From Kineococcus rubinsiae (GTDB lineage Bacteria; Actinomycetota; Actinomycetes; Actinomycetales; Kineococcaceae): a DNA stretch of 64,000 bases. Position 1 is the first letter of the stretch, and every line of letters starts with the position of its first letter. This document shows positions 3 through 64,000 of the stretch, one piece after another. The translations under genes were made by a program, and so were the position numbers. The notes below the pieces were generated by a model, which was not told where the DNA came from, did not search any database, and saw only the letters and a list, made by a program, of their open reading frames with translations. The stretch is from contig NZ_VWPY01000005.1 of NCBI RefSeq assembly GCF_011839805.1, positions 62,001 to 126,000 on the forward strand. Reading direction: 5' to 3'.

Positions 3-1108
3 GTCCTGCTGCCCGGCACCGACAGCGCCGGCGCAGCCCGGGTCGCCGGGCTGGTGCTGTCCGCCCTGCGCGAGCCGTTCAACCTGGACGGCACCGGCTT
101 GCACGTCGAAGCCAGCATCGGGATCGCGCTATGCCCCCAGCACGCCGAGGGCATCGGCGGCCTGCTGCAGCACGCCGACATCGCGATGTACCGGGCGAAG
201 GCCACCCGCAGCGGGTACGAGGTCAGCTCCGGCGAGCTCCCCGGAGCCGACCGGCTCCGGCTGCAGACCCTGGAGCAGCTGCGGGCCGCGCTGGACACCG
301 ACGAGCTCCTCCTGCACTACCAACCCAAGCTCGACCTGACCAGCCGCACCGTCACCGGTGTCGAGGCCCTGGTGCGCTGGCAGCACCCCACCCGCGGGCT
401 GCTCTACCCCGACGGCTTCCTGCCGCTGGCCGAGCAGAGCGGCCTGATGCGCCGGCTCACCTTACACGTCCTGCAGCTCGCCCTGCAGCAGGCCGACGCC
501 TGGCGCCGCGCCGGTCTGGACCTGACCGTCGCGTTAACCTGTCCGCCTCCGACCTGCTCGACGTGCAGCTTCCCGGCCAGATCGATCTGCCCCTGCGCTC
601 TTTGGACCTGCCGGCGAACCTGCTCGAGTTGGAGATCACCGAGACCGTACTGATGGCCGACCCGGCCCGCGCCCACCAGGTGCTGTACGCGCTGCGCGCT
701 CTCGGCATCCGGATCGCCGTCGACGACTACGGCACCGGCTACAGCTCGCTGTCCTACCTGCAGGACCTGCCCGTCGACGACCTCAAGCTCGACCGGTCCT
801 TCGTCATGCGCAGCGCCGATGATCCCCGCTCGGCCGCAATCGTCAGCTCCACCGTTGGACTCGCCCACGCCCTGCAGATGCGCATCATCGCCGAGGGCGT
901 CGAGACCGAAGCCGTCCTGGACCAACTCACCGCCACCGGTTGCGACCTCGCTCAGGGCTACCACCTCGCCCGCCCACAACCCGCCAACCAGCTCACTGCC
1001 TGGCTTACCCGCGACTTGCCCGGCCAGCCCGCGAGCGCGGCGCTTCCCGCCCGCCGGGCCGAGCGCCGGGCCACCGCTGGGCAGGCCTACCCACCCACCC
1101 CCTGGTGA
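3..1108 (+). pseudogene. GGDEF-EAL c-di-GMP protein, 3' part, frameshifted
   Basis: The reading frame enters from the left edge, so the N-terminus is outside the window. The first residues (VLLPGT..) are those that follow a GGDEF motif, and the cyclase tail ends with HADIAMYRAK. An EAL phosphodiesterase domain follows: [20 protein letters not shown], then [30 protein letters not shown] and IIAEGVET. Near 533 one base is missing: the domain reads ..DLTVA in one frame and VNLSAS.. in the next, inside the substrate-binding strand. Both halves are otherwise well conserved, so either the gene was lost recently, or this is a sequencing error. If the frame is restored the EAL residues look complete and the protein would be a bifunctional c-di-GMP enzyme. 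Domain call is firm; pseudogene status is moderate. Confidence 0.85.
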
Positions 1109-27962: not shown

Positions 27963-29858
27963 GTGGCCGAAGGGTGGGGGTGGGTGGGTGTGCGAGGTGG
28001 ACTGCCGCAAGTAGGTGGCTCCAGCGTCATCGCCGCCGCCAAGACGCTGTTCTGGGTCGCGGGCGGCGTGGTGGACGTCGCCGTCGGCTACGCCGAGCGC
28101 GGCACCCCCCTCCGCTCGGCGGCACTGTTGAGCATGGGAGTGCTCGCCCTCGCCTTCGCCGCACTGACCAGGTTGTTGGGCACACGCATGCCGCCCTGGG
28201 GCCGTCACGCGCTCTTCGTCGTCGCCACGGTCTTCTGCACCCTCACCGTGCTGGCCGTCCCGCGGCCCCTGGCGGCTCTCGCCCTGGCCGGCGGCTTCGC
28301 GTTCGTGATCACCGATGCCCTGGTCTTCTACCCCCTGCGTCAGGCGATCACCTACGTGACGGTGGCCGTGGCCAGCTGCAGCGCCGCCCTGCTCGTGCGC
28401 GCTGACGTGCCCTGGCCCGACGTGCTGGTGCACGGCATCGTGTTGCTGGCCCCCATGGTGATCATCGCCAACCTGGTGCGACGCGCCGCCAACGCCCACC
28501 AGGATCCGCTGACGGGTCTGGCCAACCGGCGGGCCTTCGACGACACCCTGGACACCACCCTGCTCGAGGTCGCGCGCACCGGTGGTGCCGTGTCGGTCGC
28601 CATGATCGACCTCGACCACTTCAAGGACGTCAACGACACCGCCGGGCACAGTGCGGGCGATCAACTGCTGCAGCGCCTGGCCGACAGCTGGAGCAGGCAG
28701 CTGCCCCCCTCGGTGCACGCTGCCCGTCTCGGCGGCGACGAGTTCGCCCTCATCCTGCCCGGTTACGACGGCCCAGGCGCCTTCGACCTGGTGGACTCGC
28801 TGCGCCACGTCGCCATCAGCACCCTGGGCATCGGTCTGTCCTGCGCGCTCGCCCAAGCCCGTCCGCGGGAATCGCCCACCGAGCTGCTACGCCGCATCGA
28901 CGTCGTCCTGTACCAAGCCAAGGCCGCCGGCCGCGGTCGGTGCCTGCTCATCCACGACGAGCACGAGCAGTTGGCCGCCGAGCTCAGCAGCGCCCTGCTG
29001 GAGGCGAAGGCGTTGCTCGACGCCGCTGGTGGGCCTGTCAAGAGCAGGAGCGGTTCCCCAGCCGGTACCCCTACCGCTGCGCCAGCACTCCCGGGCGCGG
29101 AGCTGGCGCAGTTGCAGGTCCACTACCAGCCGATCATGGACATGGTCGCTGGAGAGGTCGTCGGGCTCGAAGCTCTGCTCCGTTGGACGCACCCCGTCCT
29201 CGGCCCGCAGGAGCCCGAGGCCTTCGTCGCCCTGGCCGAGACGGAAGGCGTCATCGGCGACTTGGGCGCGTTCGTCTTGGCCCGTGCCTGTCGCGACGCT
29301 CACGCCGTGCAGGACGCCGCAGGACGTCGGCTGTTCCTGACCGTCAACGTCTCCGGCGCCGAGCTGACCTGCGAGCACTACCCCGACCTGCTTGCCGAGA
29401 CGCTGCAGGCGAGCGGGTGGCCGGCCGCGCAGCTGGTCCTCGAAGTCACCGAGAGCCTCATCGACGCCGATTCCGCGCCAGCGCTGCGGGCACTGCGGCG
29501 CCTGCGCCGGCTCGGCGTGGGGGTGGCCATCGACGATTTCGGCACCGGGTACTCCTCCCTGTCCCGCCTGGATACCCTCCCCGCCAGCCACCTCAAGCTC
29601 GACCACGCTTTCGTCGCCACGGTGACCACCTCGCCCTCCCGTGCGCGCCTGGTCGGCGCGGTCGTCACCCTCAGCCGGGCCTTCGACCTGCACCTGGTCG
29701 CTGAGGGCATCGAGACCGCCGACCAGGCCGACGCCCTGGTGCGCCTAGGCGCCCGCCTGGGGCAGGGGTTCCACTACCACCGCCCTCAGCCACTGGCCGG
29801 ACTGCTGACCACCGTGACCGGCTCGTTGCGGTCGCACGACGAACACTCGCAGGCGTAG
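27963..29858 (+). CDS. membrane GGDEF-EAL c-di-GMP protein
   Basis: 631 residues. Four or five helices fill residues ~20-165 (VLALAFAALTRLLG, ALFVVATVFCTLTVLAV, ALAGGFAFVITDALVF, VLLAPMVIIANLV), forming a MASE-like sensor. The cyclase domain has [32 protein letters not shown] and an intact GGDEF at 257-261; no RxxD inhibitory site precedes it. The EAL domain has EAL at 403-405 (GLEALLRWTHP), [35 protein letters not shown] and LVAEGIET, so both activities could be present; which dominates cannot be told. GTG 27963 is the longest start; GTGs at 27984 and 27990 behind a GGGTGGGGG stretch are alternatives. It is a single gene, following a transposase relic. Confidence 0.93.
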   Translation: MAEGWGWVGVRGGLPQVGGSSVIAAAKTLFWVAGGVVDVAVGYAERGTPLRSAALLSMGVLALAFAALTRLLGTRMPPWGRHALFVVATVFCTLTVLAVPRPLAALALAGGFAFVITDALVFYPLRQAITYVTVAVASCSAALLVRADVPWPDVLVHGIVLLAPMVIIANLVRRAANAHQDPLTGLANRRAFDDTLDTTLLEVARTGGAVSVAMIDLDHFKDVNDTAGHSAGDQLLQRLADSWSRQLPPSVHAARLGGDEFALILPGYDGPGAFDLVDSLRHVAISTLGIGLSCALAQARPRESPTELLRRIDVVLYQAKAAGRGRCLLIHDEHEQLAAELSSALLEAKALLDAAGGPVKSRSGSPAGTPTAAPALPGAELAQLQVHYQPIMDMVAGEVVGLEALLRWTHPVLGPQEPEAFVALAETEGVIGDLGAFVLARACRDAHAVQDAAGRRLFLTVNVSGAELTCEHYPDLLAETLQASGWPAAQLVLEVTESLIDADSAPALRALRRLRRLGVGVAIDDFGTGYSSLSRLDTLPASHLKLDHAFVATVTTSPSRARLVGAVVTLSRAFDLHLVAEGIETADQADALVRLGARLGQGFHYHRPQPLAGLLTTVTGSLRSHDEHSQA

Positions 29859-34431: not shown

Positions 34432-36165
34432 ATGGCGATGGATCGCTCAGTGCGGTGGGGTTGCACCCGCAGAACTGCCGTAGTGGCGCTGGTAGGGGCT
34501 CTCGGGTTCCCCCTGCTCTCTGCCACCCCGGCCCTCGCGGGGCCGGCCCCAGCACCCAAGCCCCCCAAGGGGGTCACGGTCATGCAGGACCAGTGGGGTG
34601 ACCCGGTGGCGGACAAGGTCTCCAAGGCGCTCGACGGGAGGTACCAGGCCGACAAGGACCCCGGCTCGCTGTTCACGGTCACGACCGCGATCGGCGCCCG
34701 CAAGGTCTGGGGGCAGAAGGACGCCGCCGGGCGGGCGCTGACCGGCCAGGGCGTGACGGTCGCACTGCTGGACTCCGGTGTCGCCCCAGTCAAGGGCCTG
34801 GACGGGGCTGGCAAGGTCGTCTACGGCCCCGACCTCTCCCTGGAGAGCGGCAGCACGGCCCTGCACGACCTCGACACGTTCGGTCACGGCACTCACCTCG
34901 CGGCGATCATCGCCGGCGAGGACGTGGTGGATCACGACCCCGTGAGCGGCGAGCCGAAGGGCACCAAGCCCTCCGATCAGCTGGGCGTCGCGCCGGACGC
35001 GACGCTTCTTCCGCTCAAGCTCGCAACGGCCAACGGCAGCACGGACGTCAGCCAGGTCATCGCCGCCCTCGACTGGGTGAGCCAGCACGCGCACGACAAC
35101 GGCGTGAACGTCCGCGTCGTCAACCTGTCGTTCGGCACCGACTCGCTCCAGCCGTACCAGCTCGACCCCCTCGCGGCCGCCGCCGAGAACGCCTGGCGCC
35201 ACGGCATCGTCGTCGTCGTCTCCGGCGGCAACGAGGGCCAGCAGGCCTTCCGCCTCACCGACCCGGCGATGGACCCTTACGTCATCGCCGTGGGCGCCTC
35301 GGATCCGAACCTGACCGTCGGGGGCTGGAAGACGCCCACCGTTGCGGCGTTCACCAACACCGGCACCGCGGAGCGTCACGTGGACCTCCTCGCGCCCGGC
35401 AAGTCGATCACATCGCTGCGCGACCCCGGCTCCTCGGTCGACCAGCAGCACCCGGAGGGCCTGGTGTCCGGCGACGCGAGCACCCGACTGTTCCGCGGCA
35501 GCGGCACGTCTCAGGCCGCCGCGGTGGTCAGCGGGGCGGCTGCGCTGCTCGTGCAGGCCAACCCGTCGCTGACCCCCGATCAGGTCAAGGCGGCCCTCGT
35601 GGGCACCGCGACCCCGCTGGCCGGCGTGCCCGCCGTCTCCCAGGGCGCTGGTCAGCTCAACGTGGAGGCGGCCGTCGGTCTCGTCCGCGCGGCGCTCAAG
35701 GTCGGGCCGGCGCAGACGGCGCTGAAGGCGGCCGTGCAGCGGTTCCCGGTCTCGACCGGCACCGGCTCGCTGGAGGCGGCCCGCGGTGGGGCCAACCTCG
35801 TTGACCTCGCCTCCGGCACGGTCCTCAGCGGTGAAGTGGACGTCCAGGGCCGGCCGTTCCGGTCCGCTTCGTGGGCGAAGCTCTCCGCGGCCGGGACCGC
35901 GTGGACCGGCGGGGTCTGGAACTCCGCGCGCTGGAGCGGTGACGGCTGGGAGTCCGCGCGCTGGAGCGGCTCGGCGTGGCAGTCGGCCCGCTGGTCCTCG
36001 GCCCGGTGGTCCGCCGACGGCTGGTCGTCGGCGCGCTGGAGCGACAGCAGCTGGGACTCCGCGCGGTGGTCGTCGGCGCGCTGGAGCGGCGCCAACTGGG
36101 ACTCTGCACGCTGGAGCGACAGCAGCTGGGACTCCGCGCGCTGGTCTTCGGCGCGCTGGAGCTGA
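34432..36165 (+). CDS. secreted S8 subtilisin-like protease with Trp-rich repeat tail
   Basis: 577 residues; ATG 34432 with AGGAG seven bases upstream. A signal peptide (basic start, [20 protein letters not shown], cleavage before GPAP) directs export. The catalytic set is complete: D114 (VALLDSGVA), H152 ([14 protein letters not shown]), oxyanion N267 (VSGGNEGQ) and S360 ([17 protein letters not shown]), the subtilase kexin/pyrolysin-like arrangement. After ~470 a linker leads to a C-terminal ~85-residue region of repeated W-S-S-A-R-W-S units (W..SARWS about a dozen times), which has no sorting motif and could bind cell-wall carbohydrate or form a beta-prism-like pile. Similar tails exist in other actinobacterial S8 proteases, function unknown. 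The gene lies 8 bp ahead of a GGDEF-EAL gene on the same strand, so both are probably one operon. Confidence 0.92.
35912..36165 (+). repeat. in-gene repeats encoding SARWS units
   Basis: The 3' end of the protease gene is made of degenerate ~18-33-bp units with TCCGCGCGCTGGAGC-like cores, each encoding (W)xSARWS. The units differ at third positions, so the protein pattern, not only the DNA, has been kept. Confidence 0.85.
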
Positions 36166-36173
36166 CGAGCACC

Positions 36174-38729
36174 ATGTCGACACCTGCGTCTCGCAGGACC
36201 GGCGCCCTCGCGGCCGGCCTGGCGCTCATCGCCGCCGGGCTGGTCGCGACGGTCCCCGCCGTTCCTCTCCTCGTGCTGCCGCTGCCGGGGCCCGCTTGGG
36301 CGCTCACGGTGGTGCTGGCGGCGCTGTTCCTGGCCGCGGAGCTGCTCCTGCTGCATGTGGAGGTGCGCTCGCAGGCGTACTCCCTCACCCTCGCCGGCAT
36401 CCCGCTGGTGATCGGGCTGCTCGTCTGTGCTCCCTGGCAGCTGGTGATGGCCCGGCTCGCGGGGTCAGCCCTGGCCTTCGCTGTCCAGCGGTCGTCGGTG
36501 CTCAAGGCGGGGTACAACCTCTCCGCCTACGCTTTCGAGGTCGCCGCGGGCTTGGCGCTGCTGCACCTGCTCCTGACTCCCTCGACCTCGCTCATAGTCG
36601 CCACCGCCTGGTTCTGCGGCCTGGTCGTGCTCTTCATCGACCAGCTGATGAGTCTGTCGGTGTGCCAGGTCATCCGCTGGCACCAGGGGCCGCTGTCGAC
36701 GCGCCAACGCGCGGAGGTTCACCTCCCCGCCGTCGTGATCAGCTGCCTCGCGACCGCGAGTTCCTACGGACTTCTCCTGCTCGCCTTCGACGGCCTCGTG
36801 GGGGCTTTCGTCGTGGCTTTCCTCGTCGCCGGGTCGTCCCTGACGTACCGCCACTACCGGGTGCTGCACCGGCGTCACCGGTCGCTAGCTCATGTGCACG
36901 ACTTCATCCGGCTCAGCGAGAGCGACGAGGATCTCGACGAGCTCACTCGTCGCATGCTCGAGCAGGCTCGCACCCTCATGCGCGCCGAGGTCGCCGAACT
37001 CACGGTTCACGACACCGACCGTTTCGTGCGGCTGCGGGTCCAGGACGACGACCGCCCCCACGCGGCTCCCGCCCCTGCGGACGCGGCGACGGCCCTCACC
37101 GTCGCGGATGGCCCGGTCTTGCGTTCGCGGCGGACCCGCGACCCGGCGGCTCGGGCCTGGCTGCAGGCGTCTGGGTTCCGCGACGCGGTCGCGGTGCCCT
37201 TCGCCGCGCTGGACGGGCGGGCCGGAGGAACGCTCACCGTGGCAGACCGCATCGAGGGCACTGGCTCCTTCACCGCCGAAGACGTCACCCTGCTCGAGAC
37301 GCTCGCCGGTCACCTCGCCGTGGCGCTGAACAGCCGTCGCCGCCACGAGCGGCTGCACTACGAAGCCACCCACGACGTGCTCACCGGGCTCGGCAACCGC
37401 GCACTGCTCACCGCGGCCATCACTGCGGTCACGGGCGGCGACGCGCGCGAAGACGTCGCGCTGCTCCTGTTGGACCTCGACCACTTCAAGGACGTCAACG
37501 ACACCCTCGGCCACCACGTCGGTGACGCCCTGCTGCGCGCCGTGGCTGACCGGTTGATGGCGGCCCTGCCTCCCTCCGCCACGGTCGTGCGGCTCGGCGG
37601 TGACGAGTTCGCCGTGCTGCTGCCGGACGTCACCGAGCTACCGGGAGGCCGCGCCCGCAGGCGGCACGGCAGCGACCGCAGGAGTCGCGAAGAAGCGGTG
37701 ACGGCACTAGCCGTGCAGATCGCTGCCACCCTCGCGGCACCGGTGCCGCTGCCCGAAGCGGTTCTGACGACCCGCGCCAGCGTGGGTGTCGCGCTGGGTT
37801 GCGGCGAGGCCGACGCCACGGCTTCCACCCTGCTGCGCCGCGCCGACACCGCCATGTACGCCGCCAAGGCCGGACAGATCGCCGTCGTCCTCCACACTCC
37901 CGCCCTGGACCAGGGTCGTCTCGAGCGCCTGGCCCTGCTCGCCGACCTCCGCGTCGCGCTGGAGCAGGACCAGCTGCAGGTCCTCTACCAGCCGAAGCTG
38001 AACCTCGCCGCCGGCCGCACCACCAGTGTCGAGGCGCTGGTGCGCTGGCAGCATCCCCGGCTGGGGACCTTGAGCCCAGACATCTTCATCCCGCTCGCCG
38101 AAGCCAACGGACTCATCCCCCGCCTGACACAGATCGTCCTGGCCGAGTCGCTACGGCAGTGCGCCGCGTGGCGTGCAGCCGGTATCGACCTGTCCGTCGC
38201 CGTGAACCTCTCCGCGGCGACCGTGAACGACCCGTCGCTGCCGGAGCAGATCAGTACCGCCCTGCTCACCGCCGGTCTCCCGCCATCGAAGCTGACCCTG
38301 GAGATCACCGAGAGCGCGGTGATGAACGACCCCGAGCGCGCCGCGGCCATCCTCGAGCGGATCGCCGCCATCGGGGTCACCCTGTCCCTCGACGATTTCG
38401 GAACCGGCTACTCGAGCCTGTCTTACCTGCAACGTCTCCCCGTCGCGGAAGTCAAGATCGACCGGTCGTTCACCGCTGTGCTACGCGCCGACCAGCCCAA
38501 CAGCCAGATCCTCGTGCGGGCCGTGATCAACCTCGGCACCAGTCTCGGCCTGCGGGTCGTCGCGGAGGGCGTCGAGGACGCTGCGACCTTGAAGCTGTTG
38601 CGGAAGCTAGGATGCCATGTGATTCAGGGCTACCACGTCGCGCGGCCCCTCACCCCCGCCAATATTGTCACCCACCTTCACGAGCAGCACGCAAACTTCT
38701 CCCCGCGATTGCGTTCCGTCCCCGCCTGA
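36174..38729 (+). CDS. membrane GAF-GGDEF-EAL c-di-GMP protein
   Basis: 851 residues from ATG 36174. The N-terminal ~230 residues form six to eight helices ([58 protein letters not shown]), a MASE-like membrane sensor. Then a GAF-like domain (~290-390: [20 protein letters not shown]), a cyclase domain with [32 protein letters not shown] and GGDEF at 475-479, and an EAL domain with EAL at 620-622, [36 protein letters not shown] and VVAEGVED. A ~20-residue arginine-rich insertion ([17 protein letters not shown]) after GGDEF is unusual and sits near the cyclase dimer face. Both catalytic motifs are intact. Eight bases separate it from the secreted protease, which suggests that protease output and c-di-GMP level are controlled together. 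Confidence 0.93.
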
Positions 38730-43377: not shown

Positions 43378-43909
43378 ATGTCTCGTGTAGAACACCCACC
43401 GCCGGGCGGGGGTCGTGGTGGTCGTGGCGGGATCTTCAAACAGGGCCACGACGATCCCGCCCACACTGCGCTCTGCGCGACAGCTGCCGTTTCGACTTCG
43501 CCTCGGGAGCGGCGATGGCCGCCAGCGCCAGGTGAGTGCGAGCTCCTCCTCGTGCAGGTCGTGACCAGCGCCCCGACTGGCACGACATGCAACGCTGTAG
43601 GCCTGACTGCTCCAACGGCCCACCCCCTCGGCACAGCAGGGACCTAACAGGTCCGATCCGAGGACGTCTCCCGTTAGACCGCTGTGAAGGGCAACACCTT
43701 CGCTCGTTCTCTCGCGGGCCTCTCATGGGTAGTGCCGCCGGGGGCCGTCGCACCACGACGCAGGAGTAGACACGCGCAGTAATGTGTCTAGTATCCGCAA
43801 AGACGCGCTTTAGCTGTCGCCTTCAACAACCGATGCATCCACCGGTCCTCCCAACCAGTGGAGGCCACCCTCGCGCACCCTTGCGAGGAGCCAGCCTGGA
43901 GGAGCACTC
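43378..43909. other. gap without a supported gene
   Basis: About 530 bp. The minus-strand frames here are arginine/proline-rich and not convincing. The stretch 43765-43850 is relatively AT-rich and may contain the promoter of the LOV gene; GGAGGAGCA (43896-43904) is its ribosome site. Confidence 0.4.
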
Positions 43910-46267
43910 GTGAGCACCATCGAGCAGATCATCGCCGACGACTCGCTGCACAGTGTCTTCCAACCGATCATCGACCTGGACAGCGGCGCCGTCGTCGCCT
44001 ACGAAGCTCTCGCCCGGGGACCGCTAGGCCCGCTGAGTGGGCCGAACGAGATGTTCGCCGCCGCACGCCGAGCCGGTCTCCTCGCCGTCCTGGACCGCGC
44101 ATGCCGCGCCGCAGCCTTCCGCGGCGCCCTCGCGCACGGCCTGCTGGCGCCCTTGACGCTGTTCGTGAACGTTGAGCCGGGAGTCCTGGACACTGCCCCC
44201 GTCGATGACCTGCTGGCCCTGGCTGACAGCGCCCCCGGGCAATTGCAGATCGTGCTCGAAATCACCGAACGGGCGCTGGCCACACGGCCAGCTGAACTGC
44301 TGCGCACCGTCGAGCGAGTACGCGGCCTGGGCTGGGGCGTTGCGCTGGACGACGTCGGTGCCGACGCTGCCTCCCTCGCCTTCATGCCGCTGCTACGCCC
44401 CGATGTCGTCAAGCTCGACCTCAGACTCGTGCAAGAGCGGCCCTCCCCCGTCATCGCTGAGATCATGAACGCCGTCAACGCCTACGCCGAGCGCACCGGA
44501 GCACTGGTGCTCGCCGAAGGCATCGAGACCCAACAGCACCTCACGGTGGCCCGTGCTCTCGGCGCACGCCTCGGACAAGGATGGTTCTTCGCTCGCCCCG
44601 CCGCAGCACCCGCCTTGCAGTACCCGGTGGCGCCCTTGCACCTGCCCGTGGCACCCACCGCCGCCACTGTCGCCCCCTCGCCCTTTAACAGCCTGCCAGT
44701 CGGCACCTCGCTACGCCGCGCTCCCAAAAGATTGCTGGTCGAGCTTAGCAAGCAGTTGGAGCGTCAGGCGATGCGCTTGGGAGAGACGTGCGTCCTTGCC
44801 GCCACTTTCCAGGAAGCACGGCATCTGACGCCGGCGACGGCACTGCGCTACCGCGATCTGGTGGCGCGCATTGGCTTCGTCTGCGTCCTGGGCGAAGACC
44901 TGCCCATCGAGCCCATCCCGGGTGTGCGTGGCGCTGCCCTCGCCCCCGACGACCCCGTCCGCGGGGAGTGGGACGTCGTCGTGGTCAGCCCACACTTCAG
45001 CGCCGCACTGCTGGCCCGTGACCTGGGTGATGACGGGCCCGACATGGACCGCATGTTCGAATACGCCCTCACCTACCGTCATGACATCGTCGTGGGCGCC
45101 GCGCACAGTCTCCTCTCGCGCGTTGTGCCCACTCTCGATCCAGCCCTCGATCCGGCATCGCACAACGCGGACGAAGGCGCAAGCCGCTCGGTGGGCGACC
45201 TCGAGGTTCCGGCAGCATCGAACCTGCAGCCTGAACGCGGCCCGCGAGCACCCGCCACCTCGCTGACGCCCCCGTTGCCGTTCTCCTCGCAACTACCTAC
45301 CGGCTGGCAGGTGAGCCCCGTGTCGGAGGCTCTGCTGCGCCGTGCGCTGGCCGCCTCCACCAGCGGCATCACCATCGCCGACCTCCGCCAGCCTGACCAA
45401 CCACTGATCTATGTCAACCGGGCGTTCGAGCAGCTGGTCGGACACCGCTCCGAGGAGCTGCTCGGGCGCAACTGCCGTTTCGCGCAAGGACCCGACACCG
45501 ACCACGACACAGTCAGCCGGCTGCGAGCAGCCATCGCAGAGGGCCGAGAGGTCCGCGAGAGGCTGCTGAACTATCGCGGTCTCGATCGCACACCGTGGTG
45601 GAACGAGATCTACATGGCTCCCGTCGCCGATGAGCACGGCGCCATCGTGCAGTACATCGGCGTGCAGAACGACGTCACCGCGCACGTCCAGGCCGAACGC
45701 GCCCTCGTCCAAGAACGCGACCGCGCCCGCTCCTACCTGGCTCGCCTTGAGGACCTCGCCTACACCGACTTCCTCACCGGACTGGCCAACCGACGCCGCT
45801 TCGAAGAGAGCGTCGATTCGAGTCTGCGGGAGGCCGAAGGCAACGGTAGCGTCCTGGCCCTGCTCTTCGTTGACCTCAACGGCTTCAAGTCCGTCAACGA
45901 CAGTCTGGGGCACGCCGCTGGTGATGACCTGCTCGTGCAAGTCGCCCAGCGCATCAAAACCGGGATCCGACGAAGCGACCTCGCGGCCCGCCTCGGAGGC
46001 GATGAGTTCCTCATCGCGCTGAGTGGGTTGGACCCCAACGACGCGCGCCCGCACGCAGACCGCATCGCGCAGCAGCTGCGTGACGCCATCTCAGCTCCGT
46101 GCCAGCTCGGCGAGGCACTTGTCAGCGTCAGTATCAGTGCCAGCATCGGCGTCGCCATATTCCCCGATACCGATGCCGACCCAGGCGACAGCCACACAGG
46201 CGGCGACTTCCGCTCACTGTTGCACCGCGCTGACATGCAGATGTACGCCGCCAAACACGGCAGGTGA
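43910..46267 (+). CDS. EAL-DICT-LOV-GGDEF blue-light c-di-GMP protein
   Basis: 785 residues; GTG 43910 with GGAGGAGCA upstream. Domain order is unusual, with EAL first: E32 in AYEALARGPLG, FVNVEPG, LEITERAL, ALDDVGADAASLAFM, VVKLDLRLV and VLAEGIET. Then a DICT domain (~265-390: KRLLVELSKQLERQAMRLGE, WDVVVVSPHFSAALLARDL), known from cyclases and two-component proteins as a likely light-related sensor. Then a LOV domain (~480-590) with GRNCRFAQGPDTD, where C522 would form the flavin adduct, LLNYRGLDRTPWWNEIYMAP and QYIGVQNDVT. A GGDEF domain closes it (DFLTGLANRRRF, FVDLNGFKSVNDSLGHAAGD, GGDEF 696-700). So blue light probably tunes c-di-GMP synthesis; the EAL part lacks the usual DDFGTG (DDVGAD) but keeps both aspartates. 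Cytoplasmic; single gene. Confidence 0.93.
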   Translation: MSTIEQIIADDSLHSVFQPIIDLDSGAVVAYEALARGPLGPLSGPNEMFAAARRAGLLAVLDRACRAAAFRGALAHGLLAPLTLFVNVEPGVLDTAPVDDLLALADSAPGQLQIVLEITERALATRPAELLRTVERVRGLGWGVALDDVGADAASLAFMPLLRPDVVKLDLRLVQERPSPVIAEIMNAVNAYAERTGALVLAEGIETQQHLTVARALGARLGQGWFFARPAAAPALQYPVAPLHLPVAPTAATVAPSPFNSLPVGTSLRRAPKRLLVELSKQLERQAMRLGETCVLAATFQEARHLTPATALRYRDLVARIGFVCVLGEDLPIEPIPGVRGAALAPDDPVRGEWDVVVVSPHFSAALLARDLGDDGPDMDRMFEYALTYRHDIVVGAAHSLLSRVVPTLDPALDPASHNADEGASRSVGDLEVPAASNLQPERGPRAPATSLTPPLPFSSQLPTGWQVSPVSEALLRRALAASTSGITIADLRQPDQPLIYVNRAFEQLVGHRSEELLGRNCRFAQGPDTDHDTVSRLRAAIAEGREVRERLLNYRGLDRTPWWNEIYMAPVADEHGAIVQYIGVQNDVTAHVQAERALVQERDRARSYLARLEDLAYTDFLTGLANRRRFEESVDSSLREAEGNGSVLALLFVDLNGFKSVNDSLGHAAGDDLLVQVAQRIKTGIRRSDLAARLGGDEFLIALSGLDPNDARPHADRIAQQLRDAISAPCQLGEALVSVSISASIGVAIFPDTDADPGDSHTGGDFRSLLHRADMQMYAAKHGR

Positions 46268-47032: not shown

Positions 47033-47782
47033 TCACGACAGGTTGAGGCTGTCGCCCCGCTCGGCGGAAGACACGATGTCGACCGCGAGATCGCGCACCT
47101 TCCGGTTGCTCTTGTTCGACTCGAGGACGAGCACCTGAAACGCTGCATCAGCGTCGCAGCGCACGGCGCTCATGACGACGCCCTTCGCTTGGTCGATGAC
47201 CGATCGAGACTCCATCGTGGCCACAAGTCGGTTCACGTACTGTTCGCGCTGAGCGAAGAGCGCTGCGTTGGCGACGGCAACGCCGGCGTAAACGGCGAAG
47301 GACGCCGCGACCGCCTCTGCTTCGCGGCTCACGGGCTCATCCCGGCGAAGCCGGTAAAGGCCTATCGCGCCCGAGAACCGGCTCGGCATGGGCAGAGGCA
47401 TCGCCAGCAAACTGGTGACCCCTTGGCGGCGGGCGAGCGCAGCGAAGGACGGGTAGAGGTCATCGCAGGCGGTGTCGTCGCTGCGGATAGGCACACCGGA
47501 TGTGGCCGCTCCCACGCAAGGGCCGAAGCCGGCCTCGTATTGCCATTCGTCGAGCGCGACCGCCAGGGAGCCGCTGAAGGCCGAGATGCGGGTGGCATCG
47601 CTCTCGAGGGTGATGGAGACCTCGTCGACGCCGGGGATGGTCACTCTGGCAAGCCGGGCCACCTCGTGAAGTACTGCGGTCAACGACCGCTCCCCCAGCA
47701 GGATCCTCGCGAGATCGCGAAGGGCAGAGAAGTGGACAGCCGCATGTGTCCCGAGTTCGCCTTCAGGAGATGTGGCGGGCAT
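47033..47782 (-). CDS. GAF-ANTAR regulator (2 of 3)
   Basis: 249 residues from ATG 47782 (AGGAAGGA upstream; the longer frame to 47833 has no site). GAF domain about 35-170: VDEVSITLESDATRISAFSG, VGAATSGVPIRSDDTACDDL, RQGVTSLLAMPLPMP. ANTAR domain about 185-245: ESRSVIDQAKGVVMSAVRCD, ADAAFQVLVLESNKSNRKVR. Close to the protein at 19029 in length and layout, so the two are probably recent paralogues. ANTAR proteins bind tandem RNA hairpins to stop termination; no such pair was found next to this gene. A small HTH gene follows on the same strand. Confidence 0.9.
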   Translation of the reverse strand: MPATSPEGELGTHAAVHFSALRDLARILLGERSLTAVLHEVARLARVTIPGVDEVSITLESDATRISAFSGSLAVALDEWQYEAGFGPCVGAATSGVPIRSDDTACDDLYPSFAALARRQGVTSLLAMPLPMPSRFSGAIGLYRLRRDEPVSREAEAVAASFAVYAGVAVANAALFAQREQYVNRLVATMESRSVIDQAKGVVMSAVRCDADAAFQVLVLESNKSNRKVRDLAVDIVSSAERGDSLNLS

Positions 47783-48047
47783 GGAAATCCTTCCTGTGAC
47801 AAGCTGAACAGCGCTCCACTGCAATCCGGCCATCTACGGGTAGCAGCGCAGTCCGTCAGCTCTTGAGCTCAAATCCGTTGAACGCGAGTCGTTGGGAGGG
47901 TGGTCAACATCCGCGCTGCCTCAGTCGTGTCCTGGTGCGACGATCAGCGTCCGGGCCGCTCACGTGCAGCGTCCCCGAGGTGAGTCGCTCCTCGATGCTG
48001 CACGTGCGTGGCTGGCGCTCAGGGCTGGGCGTCGTGCTTATGGTCGG

Positions 48048-56369: not shown

Positions 56370-56586
56370 GGGCGAACTGACATCGCCCATCGGCTCGCCC
56401 GCCTGCATCGAGCGACCCTGGGCTGATCAGCCGGGAAGCCCACCTGCCGAGATGCTCAGCCAAGCGGTTGAGCAGGCACGCGGCGTGGACGATTGGACTC
56501 GCGACCGCCGTCTGCAAGGGTCAGGATCACCATCGTCGCGGCACTGAGGCTGGGCTCGGGTAGCTGCGGTCATGTACGGAGGCAAC

Positions 56587-57507
56587 GTGAACGACGATGA
56601 CGAGCGCGTAGCGGCAGCACCTCAGCGATCGAGTGATGACGATCTTGCCCGCGCCGCTGTGGAGGGCACCCAAGCCCTCGTCCTCATCTTCGACGAGCGA
56701 GGGCACTGCCTCAGCGCTAATCCGGCCGTCACTCGCGCTTTGGGATGGACGCGCGAGGAACTGGGTGCTCGCCCCTTCTGGGACGTCTACGTCGCACCAG
56801 AGCACGTCATCCTTGCGCGTCAGGCATTCACCCTCGCCATCGAACGAGGACTGGCTTTTCCGCAAGAAGGGGACTGGCTGGACCGCTCCGGTGCCCGGCG
56901 CCGCATCCGCATGCACAACGATGTGCTGCGCGACGAGGGAGGCCAGCCGTACGCGCTGGTGACCGTCGGGATGGACGTTACACAACAGAATCACCGGGAA
57001 GCCCTGCTGCGCGAGCGAGCCGAGATTGACCACTTGACGGGCCTGAGCAACCGCTCCGCATTCTTCGACCACCTCAGCACGGCGCTGCACGCTCGCCAGG
57101 GCGCAGGCGTCGGTCTGCTGTTCTGCGACCTCGACGGCTTCAAGCAAGTGAACGATGAGCACGGTCACCACGTCGGGGACTTGCTGTTGACGCAGGTCGC
57201 TCAACGCCTTCAAGACTCATGCGCACCCGACCATGTCGCCGCCCGCTTTGGAGGCGATGAATTCGTCATCTTGTTCCCGCATGCCGATGAACAACGCTTG
57301 AGCCTTCTCGCCGAGCGCATCAAAATCGCCATGCGCGACCCGATCGTCACTTCATCTGGGACAATCAACATCGGCGTCAGCGTGGGCTGGGCAATCAGCG
57401 AACCGAAAATGGCAGCCGATGAGTTGATCCAAGCCGCTGACCATCGCATGTACCGGGTGAAATCCGTCCGCCAGCGACACGCCTCAATCCTAGACAGCGA
57501 TACCTGA
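56587..57507 (+). CDS. PAS-GGDEF diguanylate cyclase
   Basis: 306 residues from GTG 56587 (GGAGG at 56578-56582; ATG 56572 is in frame but has no site). PAS domain about 20-130: LVLIFDERGHCLSANPAVTR, LGWTREELGARPFWDVYVAP, ALVTVGMDVTQQ. The cyclase domain reads DHLTGLSNRSAFFDHLSTAL, FCDLDGFKQVNDEHGHHVGD, GGDEF at 222-226 and HRMYRVKSVRQRH. GGDEF is intact, so it should make c-di-GMP. No RxxD inhibitory site is seen before GGDEF (DHVAARF instead). No membrane segment, so it is a soluble cyclase. Located 250 bp from the rhodopsin gene, convergent with it. Confidence 0.92.
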   Translation: MNDDDERVAAAPQRSSDDDLARAAVEGTQALVLIFDERGHCLSANPAVTRALGWTREELGARPFWDVYVAPEHVILARQAFTLAIERGLAFPQEGDWLDRSGARRRIRMHNDVLRDEGGQPYALVTVGMDVTQQNHREALLRERAEIDHLTGLSNRSAFFDHLSTALHARQGAGVGLLFCDLDGFKQVNDEHGHHVGDLLLTQVAQRLQDSCAPDHVAARFGGDEFVILFPHADEQRLSLLAERIKIAMRDPIVTSSGTINIGVSVGWAISEPKMAADELIQAADHRMYRVKSVRQRHASILDSDT

Positions 57508-60456: not shown

Positions 60457-60578
60457 CATCGCCGGTGGCGGCGTGACGTGTGCCCGCACGGGCACCAACG
60501 GGCAGGCGTATATGTCTTCAGCGACGAATCGCACCGGGCAGTGCTCGCTCAAGAGCGGGCGGCTCGTATCCTTCCGCC

Positions 60579-62873
60579 ATGAGTGATCAGGCACATGAGG
60601 TCGCCGATCGCGGCGATAGCCTTGTGCCGTCTCAGTCGGCGGGCCAAACCGCCTCGGAAGGTGTCACCGACCCGCGGCCTGAGGTGATGTCCGCAACCAC
60701 GTTAAACGTCGAGCTACCCAGCGTGGTGCACGACTACCCCGCCGCGGTGCTGCTGATCGACACCGGCCCCAACCAGGACACCGGATTCAACCACGTCGTG
60801 TACGTCAACGACCTCGCCCGCCAGCTCGCTCCTGATGCGAGCCTGCCCATCGGCGTGGAGGACTGGTCGCGCGCAGCGGGACTGAAGGTCGACACCGGCG
60901 CCGCCCTCAGTGCCAGCAGCACACCCCTGTCCCAGCTCGCGGCCGGCGAACCCGAGAGCGGGCGCCAAATCAGCGCCGCCCTGCAAAGCCAAGCCACACA
61001 CGCCCGCGAGGCATTGTGGGCGATCGGGATGCCTCTACGTGGTGCACCGCAGCCCCTGCGAGCCCGCTCGTTGCTGGTGTTGATGCCGCTGCGTTTCCCT
61101 GACGCCGTCGCCGACGTTCAGGCCGCTGCCGTCAGCGACCGCGCCCGCGGCTCGGTGCTGGCCAGTGAGCTCGCCATCGCGATCAGCGACCCCACCGCCG
61201 CCGACGACCCGCTGATCTGGGTCTCCCCCAGCTTCGAGCATCTCACCGGCTACACCAGCACCGAAGTGCTGGGGTACAACTGCCGCTTCCTGCAGGGACG
61301 CGACACCGACCCCGCTGCCGTACAGCAACTACGCGAAGGTTTGGCCGCGCAGACCACGGTGAGTCAGACCTTGCTGAACTACCGCCATGACGGCTCCGCC
61401 TTCTACAATCACCTAGTTATCTCCCCCGTCTTCGACGCTGATGGCACCCTCACCCACCACGTCAGCGTCCAGAGCGACGTCACCGGACAAGTCCTGGCCC
61501 AGCGAGAGCGTGAGACGGCCATGCGCGAAGCCGAGCGAGCCCGCCAGGCCCAAGCGGCGGCGCAGCAGGCGCAAGCCGCAGCAGAGGAGGCCGGACGCTT
61601 CGGGCAGCTGCTGCTGAGGTTGAGCGAGGCCCTGACCGCCACCGTCTCCCTGCAGGAGGTCACGACCACCCTCACCGGCGTCCTGGCCGACGAGCTTGGC
61701 GCCGTCGGCGGCGGGCTGCTGCTGCCCGATGTCAGCGCAACCCAGCTCAACTTCACGACTTTGCACGACATGCCCGCCGGTACCGATGCGGCGTGGACAC
61801 GCATCGGCTGGCAGGAGGACGCCCCTGCCGCCCTCGCGGCCCGCACCCGGCGGGCGGTGTTCTACCCCGACACCCAGGCCCTGCTGGCCGCCCACCCCTC
61901 CATCACGACTCACGCCGCGCTGGCGGCGATGGGTGCCAGCGCCCACCTGCCTCTGGTCGCCGGCCACGACGTCGTCGGCGTCCTCTTCCTGTACTGGGAC
62001 CGCCCTCACCAGCTGACCGCCCAGCAGCAAGAGGCGCTGCGCGCCCTCGCGCGCTACACCGCCCAAGCCGTGCAATGCGCGACCCTCATCAACCAGCGCC
62101 GCAGCGCCGCCGAAGTGCTGCAACGCTCCTTGTTGACCCACCTACCAGAACCAGACCACTTGGAGCTGCGCGCTCGCTACGTTCCCGCGGCGGCAGGTGA
62201 ACACGTGGGCGGAGACTGGTACGACGCCGTCGTCCTGCCAGAGGGGGCCACCACAGTGATCATCGGTGACGTCACCGGGCACGACATGGTCGCCGCAGCA
62301 CACATGGGCCAGCTGCGCGGGCTGCTACGCGCGTATGCCTTCGACCGCGAGGAGGCTCCCGCCGCGATCGTGTCACGCCTGGACCGGGCGCTGTCCGGAT
62401 TGGGCATCGACGGCCTGGCCACCCTCGTCGTAGCCTGCATCGAGCAAAGCGATCACGACAAGGCGGCGGGATTGCGCCGACTGCGCTGGACCAACGCCGG
62501 ACATCCGCCACCGGTGCTGTTGCACGTCGACGGCAGCACCGAGGTCCTTGAGAGCGAGCCGGAGCTGCTCATGGGCCTACTGCCAGCCACCACCCGCACA
62601 GATCATGTGCACGTGCTTCCGCCGGGCTCCACGCTGCTCCTTTACACCGACGGGCTCGTCGAGCACCGCGGGCGCAGCATCAGCGACGGCATCAGCGACC
62701 TGCGCCGGGTTCTGTCCACGTACTCTGGACAGAACCTGCAAGAGCTGCTGGATCACCTGGTGCATGAGCTGGTCGGAGACTCACCTGATGACGACTGCGC
62801 CATCCTCGCTGTGCGCGCTCACCGAGAAGATCGTGACCGTCCCGCCGAGGCAGGTCCCAACCGCCTCAACTAG
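60579..62873 (+). CDS. PAS-LOV-GAF-SpoIIE serine phosphatase (blue-light RsbU-like)
   Basis: 764 residues from ATG 60579; the frame also opens at 60480, and no clear ribosome site decides it. A first PAS-like domain (~40-170: AAVLLIDTGPNQDTGFNHVV) is followed by a LOV domain (~190-310): LIWVSPSFEHLTGYTSTEVL, GYNCRFLQGRDTD with adduct cysteine C235, LLNYRHDGSAFYNHLVISPV and HHVSVQSDVT. Then an alanine/glutamine-rich coiled coil (REAERARQAQAAAQQAQAAA), a GAF domain (~350-500) and a PP2C-type SpoIIE phosphatase with EHVGGDWYDAVVLPEGAT, IGDVTGHDMVAAAHMG, WTNAGHPPPVLLH, LLYTDGLVE and DDDCAILAVR: the metal-binding aspartates are all present. Such enzymes dephosphorylate STAS antagonists, releasing a sigma factor. 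Candidate substrate: the STAS protein at 17625. Light as input is inferred from LOV. Confidence 0.93.
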   Translation: MSDQAHEVADRGDSLVPSQSAGQTASEGVTDPRPEVMSATTLNVELPSVVHDYPAAVLLIDTGPNQDTGFNHVVYVNDLARQLAPDASLPIGVEDWSRAAGLKVDTGAALSASSTPLSQLAAGEPESGRQISAALQSQATHAREALWAIGMPLRGAPQPLRARSLLVLMPLRFPDAVADVQAAAVSDRARGSVLASELAIAISDPTAADDPLIWVSPSFEHLTGYTSTEVLGYNCRFLQGRDTDPAAVQQLREGLAAQTTVSQTLLNYRHDGSAFYNHLVISPVFDADGTLTHHVSVQSDVTGQVLAQRERETAMREAERARQAQAAAQQAQAAAEEAGRFGQLLLRLSEALTATVSLQEVTTTLTGVLADELGAVGGGLLLPDVSATQLNFTTLHDMPAGTDAAWTRIGWQEDAPAALAARTRRAVFYPDTQALLAAHPSITTHAALAAMGASAHLPLVAGHDVVGVLFLYWDRPHQLTAQQQEALRALARYTAQAVQCATLINQRRSAAEVLQRSLLTHLPEPDHLELRARYVPAAAGEHVGGDWYDAVVLPEGATTVIIGDVTGHDMVAAAHMGQLRGLLRAYAFDREEAPAAIVSRLDRALSGLGIDGLATLVVACIEQSDHDKAAGLRRLRWTNAGHPPPVLLHVDGSTEVLESEPELLMGLLPATTRTDHVHVLPPGSTLLLYTDGLVEHRGRSISDGISDLRRVLSTYSGQNLQELLDHLVHELVGDSPDDDCAILAVRAHREDRDRPAEAGPNRLN

Positions 62874-63169: not shown

Positions 63170-63898
63170 TCAAATGCTGCCGCGAGGCCCGACGAGTTGC
63201 CCGCTGGAGGTCAGCTCCTCGGCGATGTCGCGCAGCTTGACGTTGCGGTGCTGGCTGACCGTGATCAGCAGGTTGAAGGCCTGGGCGGCGCTGAGCTTGT
63301 GCCGTTCCATGAGGATGCCCTTGGCCTGCCCGATCAGGTCTCGACTGTCCATGGCGGTCTGCTGGCTCGTGCGCTGCAGGGCTTGAGCTAGGGCGACGGC
63401 GGCGTGGGCGACGAAGGGCAGCCCAATCTGCCGTGATTCCTCGTCGAAGGCGTGCGGGGCGCGGTTGTACAGGTTCATCGCGCCGAGGTCGTTGCCGGAG
63501 ATGAAGAGGCGGAAGGACATCATGGCGCCCACCCCCATTTCGGAGGCTTGCTGGGCGAAGTGCGGCCAGCGCGACTCGGTGCTCATGTCGGGTGCGTCGA
63601 CGACTTTGGCGTCGAAGGCGGCGTCCAGGCAGGGTCCTTCAGCAACCTTGCTCTGCAGTGCGTCGATGCCGCGGGGCAGGTCGCTGGAAGCGGCCCATGA
63701 CTCGACTTCCGTTCGGCCGGTGACGACGCTGATGGAGCCCTCTTCGGCGCCGGGGATGAGGGCGATGGCGGCGGTGACGACCTTCTCGAGGGTGTCCTCG
63801 GTACCGGCTTTCTGCTGCATCTGCCGTGCCAGGTCCGCCAGGGCGTCCACCAAGTGGCTGGGGCGAACGTCGCGCTGGCCGCCTGCTGTCTCGTCCAT
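63170..63898 (-). CDS. GAF-ANTAR regulator (3 of 3)
   Basis: 242 residues from ATG 63898 with GGGGGAGA upstream. GAF domain about 25-165: AALIPGAEEGSISVV style core, VAEGPCLDAAFDAKVVDAPD, MGVGAMMSFRLFISGNDLGA; ANTAR domain about 175-232: TAMDSRDLIGQAKGILMERH, KLSAAQAFNLLITVSQHRNV, KLRDIAEEL. It is more distant from the two other GAF-ANTAR proteins in the window (different GAF, KLSAAQAF type ANTAR) and closer to the mycobacterial Rv1626/EutV-like consensus ANTAR. RNA antitermination is the expected output. Convergent with the LOV phosphatase gene. Confidence 0.9.
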   Translation of the reverse strand: MDETAGGQRDVRPSHLVDALADLARQMQQKAGTEDTLEKVVTAAIALIPGAEEGSISVVTGRTEVESWAASSDLPRGIDALQSKVAEGPCLDAAFDAKVVDAPDMSTESRWPHFAQQASEMGVGAMMSFRLFISGNDLGAMNLYNRAPHAFDEESRQIGLPFVAHAAVALAQALQRTSQQTAMDSRDLIGQAKGILMERHKLSAAQAFNLLITVSQHRNVKLRDIAEELTSSGQLVGPRGSI

Positions 63899-64000
63899 GA
63901 CCGTCTCCCCCTCGCCTGCGCAGACCTCGCCGACATGGCGACCGACTGTCGGTGAGGCTATCCACCGGTTCACCGTTGAAGCTGCGGTCGATCCGCTGGC

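Follow-up and report, generated by a model that had tools for sequence, protein, structure and literature searches.

Blue light regulates c-di-GMP turnover through LOV-GGDEF-EAL photoreceptors such as SL2 of Synechococcus elongatus, as stated in the accessible part of PMC8846402, and it controls the EAL domain of the BLUF-EAL protein BlrP1 (PMC4844311 and PMC8846402, accessible parts). In LOV-GGDEF diguanylate cyclases the linker between the two domains, measured from the D of D[IV][TS] to the L of DxLT, falls into two length classes of 35 (long) and 21 (short) residues, and a LadC homologue is required to carry the LOV motifs FxxxT[GE]Y, Gx[ND]C[RH][FI]L[QA] and N[YF]xxx[GD]xx[FL]xN, according to the available text of PMC10396304. 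For the 35-residue members MsLadC and SfLadC, high light activation is described in the portion of PMC12805367 at hand. The DICT domain, in turn, is said to have "no discernible physiological purpose" in the consulted part of PMC8846402.

Here we describe a gene for a protein that carries an EAL, a DICT, a LOV and a GGDEF domain in this order, located in a window (the whole stretch of DNA that was analyzed) of 64,000 nucleotides of Kineococcus rubinsiae (contig NZ_VWPY01000005.1, positions 62,001 to 126,000, forward strand). The host is a soil actinobacterium. The reading frame of 785 codons starts with GTG, and its bounds are exactly those first noted (Table 1). Pfam detected all four domains above the respective cut-offs, i.e. 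EAL with 143 bits (cut-off 31.3), DICT (PF10069, aa 270-371) with 42.2 bits (gathering cut-off 23.8), the LOV domain as PAS_9 (aa 494-591) with 58 bits (cut-off 27) and GGDEF with 134 bits (cut-off 23.8). The motifs named in the original prediction, E32, GRNCRFAQG with C522 and GGDEF at residues 696-700, were all found in the translation.

Table 1 Features of the EAL-DICT-LOV-GGDEF gene. Positions refer to the window; aa, residues of the encoded protein.
Feature	Position	Strand	Basis
EAL-DICT-LOV-GGDEF protein, 785 aa	43910..46267	+	ORF and Pfam
GGAGGAG, likely ribosome-binding site, 5 nt 5' of GTG	43898..43904	+	sequence reading
EAL phosphodiesterase domain, aa 5-230	43922..44599	+	Pfam, alignment
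EAL loop 6 DDVGAD, aa 147-152	44348..44365	+	family form DDVGA[DE]
DICT domain, aa 263-408	44696..45133	+	Pfam, model
DICT-LOV tether, disordered (predicted) and unconserved, aa 412-468	45143..45313	+	alignment, model
LOV domain, aa 472-587	45323..45670	+	Pfam, solved relative, alignment
Codon of predicted photoactive C522 (GRNCRFAQ)	45473..45475	+	sequence, alignment
LOV-GGDEF linker, 35 residues, aa 588-622; predicted helix 590-618	45671..45775	+	
GGDEF cyclase domain, aa 617-783	45758..46258	+	Pfam
RxxD product-inhibition site R687-D690	45968..45979	+	alignment
GGDEF motif, aa 696-700	45995..46009	+	sequence, alignment

With SL2 the protein shares three domain kinds (PMC8846402, accessible part), but EAL comes first rather than last and DICT is added, whereas BlrP1 has BLUF instead of LOV and is without a cyclase. 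MsLadC and the window protein have LOV-GGDEF, the 35-residue linker, the adduct cysteine, DxLT, GGDEF and RxxD in common; unlike MsLadC, the window protein carries EAL-DICT and a tether before the LOV domain, and the LadC LOV motifs and salt-bridge residues are missing. The DICT domain is common to all DICT proteins (PF10069; MerR-DICT, EAL-DICT and DICT-GGDEF) and the EAL-DICT module is shared as well, but these proteins are without the LOV-GGDEF half. A description of the EAL-DICT-LOV-GGDEF arrangement was not found in the literature searched, where no paper mentions the DICT domain along with LOV, EAL and GGDEF.

The domain order had been called unusual, which is true in comparison with the sensor-GGDEF-EAL layout; within the lineage, however, it is common, and uniqueness of the layout was rejected on the basis of the relatives. 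Besides the own genome, 58 relatives were searched, and strong matches were present in 11 of 11 relatives of the same genus or family (G001-G011) and in other families of the order (G018, G033, G036, G044, G052). A scan of named genomes gave, among the matches listed, 79 loci (L034-L112) in Kineococcus, Pseudokineococcus, Quadrisphaera, Blastococcus, Modestobacter, Geodermatophilus, Klenkia, Goekera, Trujillonella, Cellulomonas, Motilibacter, Nocardioides and some MAGs. After removal of L003, which is the window gene itself, and four duplicates, 101 EAL-DICT ORFs remained among the matches listed, including 82 EAL-DICT-LOV-GGDEF, 8 EAL-DICT (two of them cut by contig ends), 6 EAL-DICT-GGDEF and 5 EAL-DICT-LOV proteins. 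Since the EAL search patterns contained D147, D148 and Q223, and L034-L112 represent the top 80 of the similarity-ranked matches (588 stretches, 357 confirmed), the share of four-domain proteins and the conservation of these three residues are partly built in. Controls free of this bias are the family members among L001-L033 and a DICT census, for which the Pfam DICT model alone, and not EAL, was used on 296 genomes of the class. The census gave 51 places in 36 of the 296 genomes, and the 47 ORFs read, all outside G000 and G033, comprised 10 four-domain proteins, 14 EAL-DICT, 2 DICT-GGDEF and 21 others; three census loci, L166, L168 and L188, correspond to the genes L111, L102 and L024 of the other set, respectively. 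A MerR pattern was present in 12 of the 21 others and was confirmed by Pfam in the two MerR-DICT ORFs checked; in such actinobacterial proteins (L118, L123 and other census loci) DICT often follows the MerR DNA-binding domain. The ORFs neighbouring the window gene had DNA matches at E 1e-10 in at most two of the 79 loci L034-L112; the other listed matches belong to uninformative antisense ORFs that overlap the gene. Known parts are combined here in a real and conserved arrangement.

For the EAL domain, we take E32, N87, E117, E120 (the loop-6 glutamate), D147, D148, K168, D170, E203, E206 and Q223 to be the catalytic or loop-stabilising residues. All eleven are present in the window protein. 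The catalytic residues are intact in 82 of the 82 listed four-domain proteins, with E32 in all 80 that have a residue at this place. In the census, which is free of the pattern bias, each of the 10 four-domain proteins has all eleven, as do 8 of the 14 EAL-DICT-only ORFs, and the other six lack catalytic residues. Loss of catalytic residues was seen in only three of the 101 listed ORFs, all distant EAL-DICT proteins, one of which is among these six. The canonical loop 6 reads DFG[TA]G, in place of which the window protein has DDVGAD; the original prediction had pointed to this deviation from DDFGTG, which is indeed present but represents the family norm DDVGA[DE], with V149 and A151 each in 81 and D or E at residue 152 in all of the 82 listed proteins. 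Decay of the EAL domain was therefore rejected, as the loop-6 form is family-wide and the catalytic residues are kept.

The AlphaFold2 model of the monomer (50 aligned sequences; mean pLDDT 86.2, pTM 0.58) shows a pLDDT below 50 for residues 412-468 and a single helix running from LOV to GGDEF. The stretch 409-471 has a mean identity of only 12% to the window protein over 16 of the 18 other rows aligned, compared to 75% for DICT and 66% for LOV, and the spacing between DICT and LOV varies from 24 to 68 residues in the 82 listed four-domain proteins. The role of DICT as the coupling element between the two enzymes, which had been proposed before, is not supported: DICT pairs with EAL, 14 of the 47 census ORFs being EAL-DICT alone, and its connection to LOV is predicted to be disordered and is variable in length and sequence. 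We therefore rejected a rigid coupling role of DICT as the default view, given the 57-residue tether and the modular occurrence of EAL-DICT; judging from the model, the disordered tether makes rigid coupling between LOV and EAL unlikely. The same features, i.e. the unconserved tether and the EAL-DICT module occurring alone, favour the idea that two independent switches reside on one chain, in which LOV would act on GGDEF only and DICT on EAL only, while the tether merely co-locates them. In line with this idea, LOV-GGDEF is known as an autonomous switch (PMC10396304, available text).

To characterize DICT itself, residues 255-410 were modelled alone (mean pLDDT 93.7). The top VIA match was TrmB (2f5t; Z 10.9, 125 aligned, 3.7 A), 68 of 998 chains had a Z of at least 8, and all 50 entries listed are TrmB, TrmBL2, polyphosphate kinase, phospholipase D or proteins that we assign to the phospholipase D (PLD) superfamily; families beyond this list may resemble DICT as well. 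Foldseek gave nothing at E ≤ 0.001 (best E 0.0026), and its list also includes unrelated folds lower down, e.g. dihydrodipicolinate reductase. The predicted fold suggests a resemblance of DICT to TrmB and phospholipase D domains. TrmB is a dead, ligand-binding version of the PLD-type fold, and HxK is the catalytic motif of phospholipase D; since HxK is absent from DICT residues 255-410, DICT would, if related to PLD, be a dead and perhaps ligand-binding version. Residues S280, E284, F300, Q301, R313, E353 and W354 are common to all kinds of DICT (each in at least 42 of 45 sequences).

The LOV domain of the window protein keeps C522 as well as N554, N565 and Q586, which we take to be the flavin contacts. 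The cysteine is present in 80 of the 82 listed four-domain proteins, and position 525 is L in 77, M in 4 and A solely in the window protein. None of the three LadC LOV motifs, as given in the accessible part of PMC10396304, is matched by the window protein; among the 82 listed relatives, the first occurs in 2, the second (cysteine) motif in 67 and the third in 1, and only L020, a protein with a short linker, has all three. Because the motifs are unmatched, the window LOV is a variant that may differ in photochemistry, and we rejected its classification as a LadC homologue; going by its sequence, the protein is at most LadC-like and may work like LadC without being one. The mismatch also speaks for a LOV domain that is not a light sensor here but a redox, other flavin or PAS sensor, in which case the protein would be light-independent; we consider this highly improbable in view of the retained cysteine and flavin contacts in the window protein and of the cysteine in nearly all listed relatives.

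At 35 residues, the LOV-GGDEF linker matches exactly the long class of light-activated cyclases, to which MsLadC belongs. This length was found in 80 of the 82 listed proteins, the exceptions being L020 (21) and L035 (a decayed 33), while the ten census proteins, two of which (L111, L102) belong to the 82, have 35 (six proteins) or 21 residues (four proteins). The closest solved relative, 8c05, aligns over residues 471-726 with the linker ungapped, and we take it to be MsLadC, since the linker residues named in the available text of PMC10396304 sit there at a constant offset. E132 of MsLadC, a Glu at a weak place of the coiled coil, corresponds to E602, which is kept in 80 of the 82 listed proteins. 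The dark-state salt bridge D44-R174 of MsLadC aligns with R513 and G644, places that are unconserved across the listed family, so that the tight dark lock of MsLadC need not apply here. Further downstream, DxLT reads DFLT (620-623) and GG[DE]EF reads GGDEF; among the 82 listed proteins, the exact GGDEF motif is present in 67 and RxxD in 73. The window protein contains one of each domain, and the added EAL-DICT may fall outside the filter described in the accessible part of PMC10396304.

Two further DICT proteins are encoded in the host genome, the full paralogue L002, which is 74% identical to the window protein, and L001 (G000:C87:92697-95996), which has intact EAL and DICT domains but Ala for the LOV cysteine, a broken linker and GPREF in place of GGDEF, and is apparently a light-blind paralogue. 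We compared such natural variants by pairwise Nei-Gojobori dN/dS, taken as descriptive values from non-independent pairs. Between the window protein and L002, dN/dS was 0.085 for EAL, 0.088 for DICT, 0.19 for LOV, 0.21 for the linker and 0.41 for GGDEF, which points to purifying selection on every domain; the cyclase of the window protein looks intact and is under selection. The LOV cysteine is lost in L001 and in its sister L035 of Kineococcus siccus, and their dN/dS against L002 was 0.60 and 0.92 for LOV and 0.26 and 0.19 for EAL, respectively. EAL is the most conserved domain (mean identity to the window protein over the same 16 of 18 rows: EAL 77, DICT 75, LOV 66, GGDEF 52%), and its catalytic residues persist in all listed four-domain proteins while GGDEF was lost repeatedly; this would fit a protein that is chiefly a light-regulated phosphodiesterase, with GGDEF serving mainly to regulate or to sense GTP/c-di-GMP, a situation that may also apply to SL2, where light activates EAL (PMC8846402, accessible part). 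However, the window GGDEF keeps the checked catalytic and I-site residues and is selected, most listed proteins retain the exact motif, and the search patterns themselves account for part of the EAL conservation at D147, D148 and Q223, so that we regard this explanation as distinctly unlikely.

A tree of EAL-DICT was built from 105 rows, including 10 four-domain census rows, with two genes present twice; L022-L024 (distant) and L044, L088 and L109 (cut by contig ends) were dropped. In this tree, which is of the quick kind with 35 of 102 inner branches open and in which a GGDEF was called dead by motif alone, at least 11 GGDEF changes and 5 LOV changes occurred overall. According to our reading, GGDEF was lost or ruined with the LOV cysteine kept at six places, namely in a Blastococcus clade of nine proteins, in a Modestobacter clade of four proteins without GGDEF and in the single proteins L108, L089, L009 and L091. 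Copies from Modestobacter and Quadrisphaera have lost the cyclase entirely and keep the LOV cysteine, as do all five listed EAL-DICT-LOV proteins; in L108, we read the ORF as stopping cleanly past the linker, followed by a LuxR-type-looking ORF. The nine Blastococcus proteins with a ruined GGDEF retain the LOV motif (GRNCRFLQ in eight, GRNCRFMQ in one), the 35-residue linker and RxxD.

Comparing the dead with the live Blastococcus clade (36 pairs each, from nine of nine dead and nine of twelve live proteins), dN/dS was 0.48 versus 0.24 for GGDEF, 0.345 versus 0.119 for the linker, which is relaxed, 0.145 versus 0.099 for EAL, which is slightly less constrained, and 0.21 versus 0.26 for LOV. 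In the Modestobacter group (6 pairs), dN/dS was 0.38 for LOV and close to 1 for the short remnants of linker and GGDEF. Within the family, these variants indicate that EAL-DICT is the core and the cyclase the most dispensable part. The LOV domain seems to be kept for more than the cyclase, and because its cysteine outlasts cyclase loss and its constraint is unrelaxed in Blastococcus, light probably acts on the phosphodiesterase as well; the retention in the dead Blastococcus clade could also be lag. The retained cysteine and the unrelaxed LOV constraint speak against the two independent switches introduced above, which we now consider rather unlikely. The broader reading by which the same chassis has become a purely light-gated phosphodiesterase in Blastococcus and Modestobacter is, as a whole, unlikely too, and it was marked down slightly on account of the LadC motif mismatch. 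In addition, Blastococcus encodes LOV-less EAL-DICT proteins with a decayed GGDEF close to the four-domain gene, which they follow directly in L053, L074 and L080 and at a distance of about 1 kb in L054; these appear to be tandem pairs of light-sensing and light-blind copies.

We favour, with a probability of roughly 0.46 (lowered from 0.50 because of the LadC motif mismatch) and hence tentatively, a protein in which an EAL-DICT phosphodiesterase is tethered to a light-activated LOV-GGDEF cyclase and the LOV dimer influences both. The activities, the light response and its direction are what we infer from the observed architecture, residues, linker length and selection. The front module EAL-DICT would act as a phosphodiesterase for c-di-GMP whose level is set by a sensor of its own, DICT, and the back module LOV-GGDEF would work like the long-linker light-activated diguanylate cyclases, both being joined by the floppy tether. 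Upon illumination, a flavin-C522 adduct would form and the LOV dimer rearrange, shifting the 35-residue helix from an inhibiting to a stimulating coiled-coil register, whereupon the two GGDEF domains would come together, with RxxD providing product feedback on the cyclase. The LOV dimer would also affect the phosphodiesterase, most likely via the geometry of the EAL-EAL dimer and not via a rigid path through DICT. As a net effect, c-di-GMP would be low in the dark and raised by blue light. The earlier interpretation, a switch between making and breaking c-di-GMP in blue light, is thereby supported in part at the level of sequence, by two apparently intact opposed enzymes, the LOV adduct cysteine, purifying selection and the linker length.

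The host genome (4.88 Mb) contains 35 EAL and 61 GGDEF matches, some of which are pieces of one gene, indicating a large c-di-GMP network. In the window itself, two genes on the forward strand carry GGDEF and EAL in one frame and one carries PAS-GGDEF (27963-29855, 35976-38726 and 56572-57504), and a further GGDEF-EAL gene at 54-976 (+) shows EAL matches in two frames (273-527, 530-976), i.e. a frameshift or an assembly error. A second LOV-like photoreceptor at 60480-62870 (+) has a PAS_9 domain with GYNCRFLQG (cysteine intact), GAF and a SpoIIE-type phosphatase, and two GAF-ANTAR proteins are encoded on the reverse strand (47036-47833 and 63173-63973).

The family addresses the open question of how one sensor may govern two opposed c-di-GMP enzymes in one chain. 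Because many relatives have the same layout, it becomes possible to test whether light controls both enzymes, and the natural variants on the conserved EAL-DICT core, i.e. intact, cyclase-dead, cyclase-less, LOV-less and light-blind forms, make the path from LOV to each enzyme testable by comparison. The family furthermore suggests a fold for the DICT sensor domain and could supply optogenetic parts for both the synthesis and the degradation of c-di-GMP.
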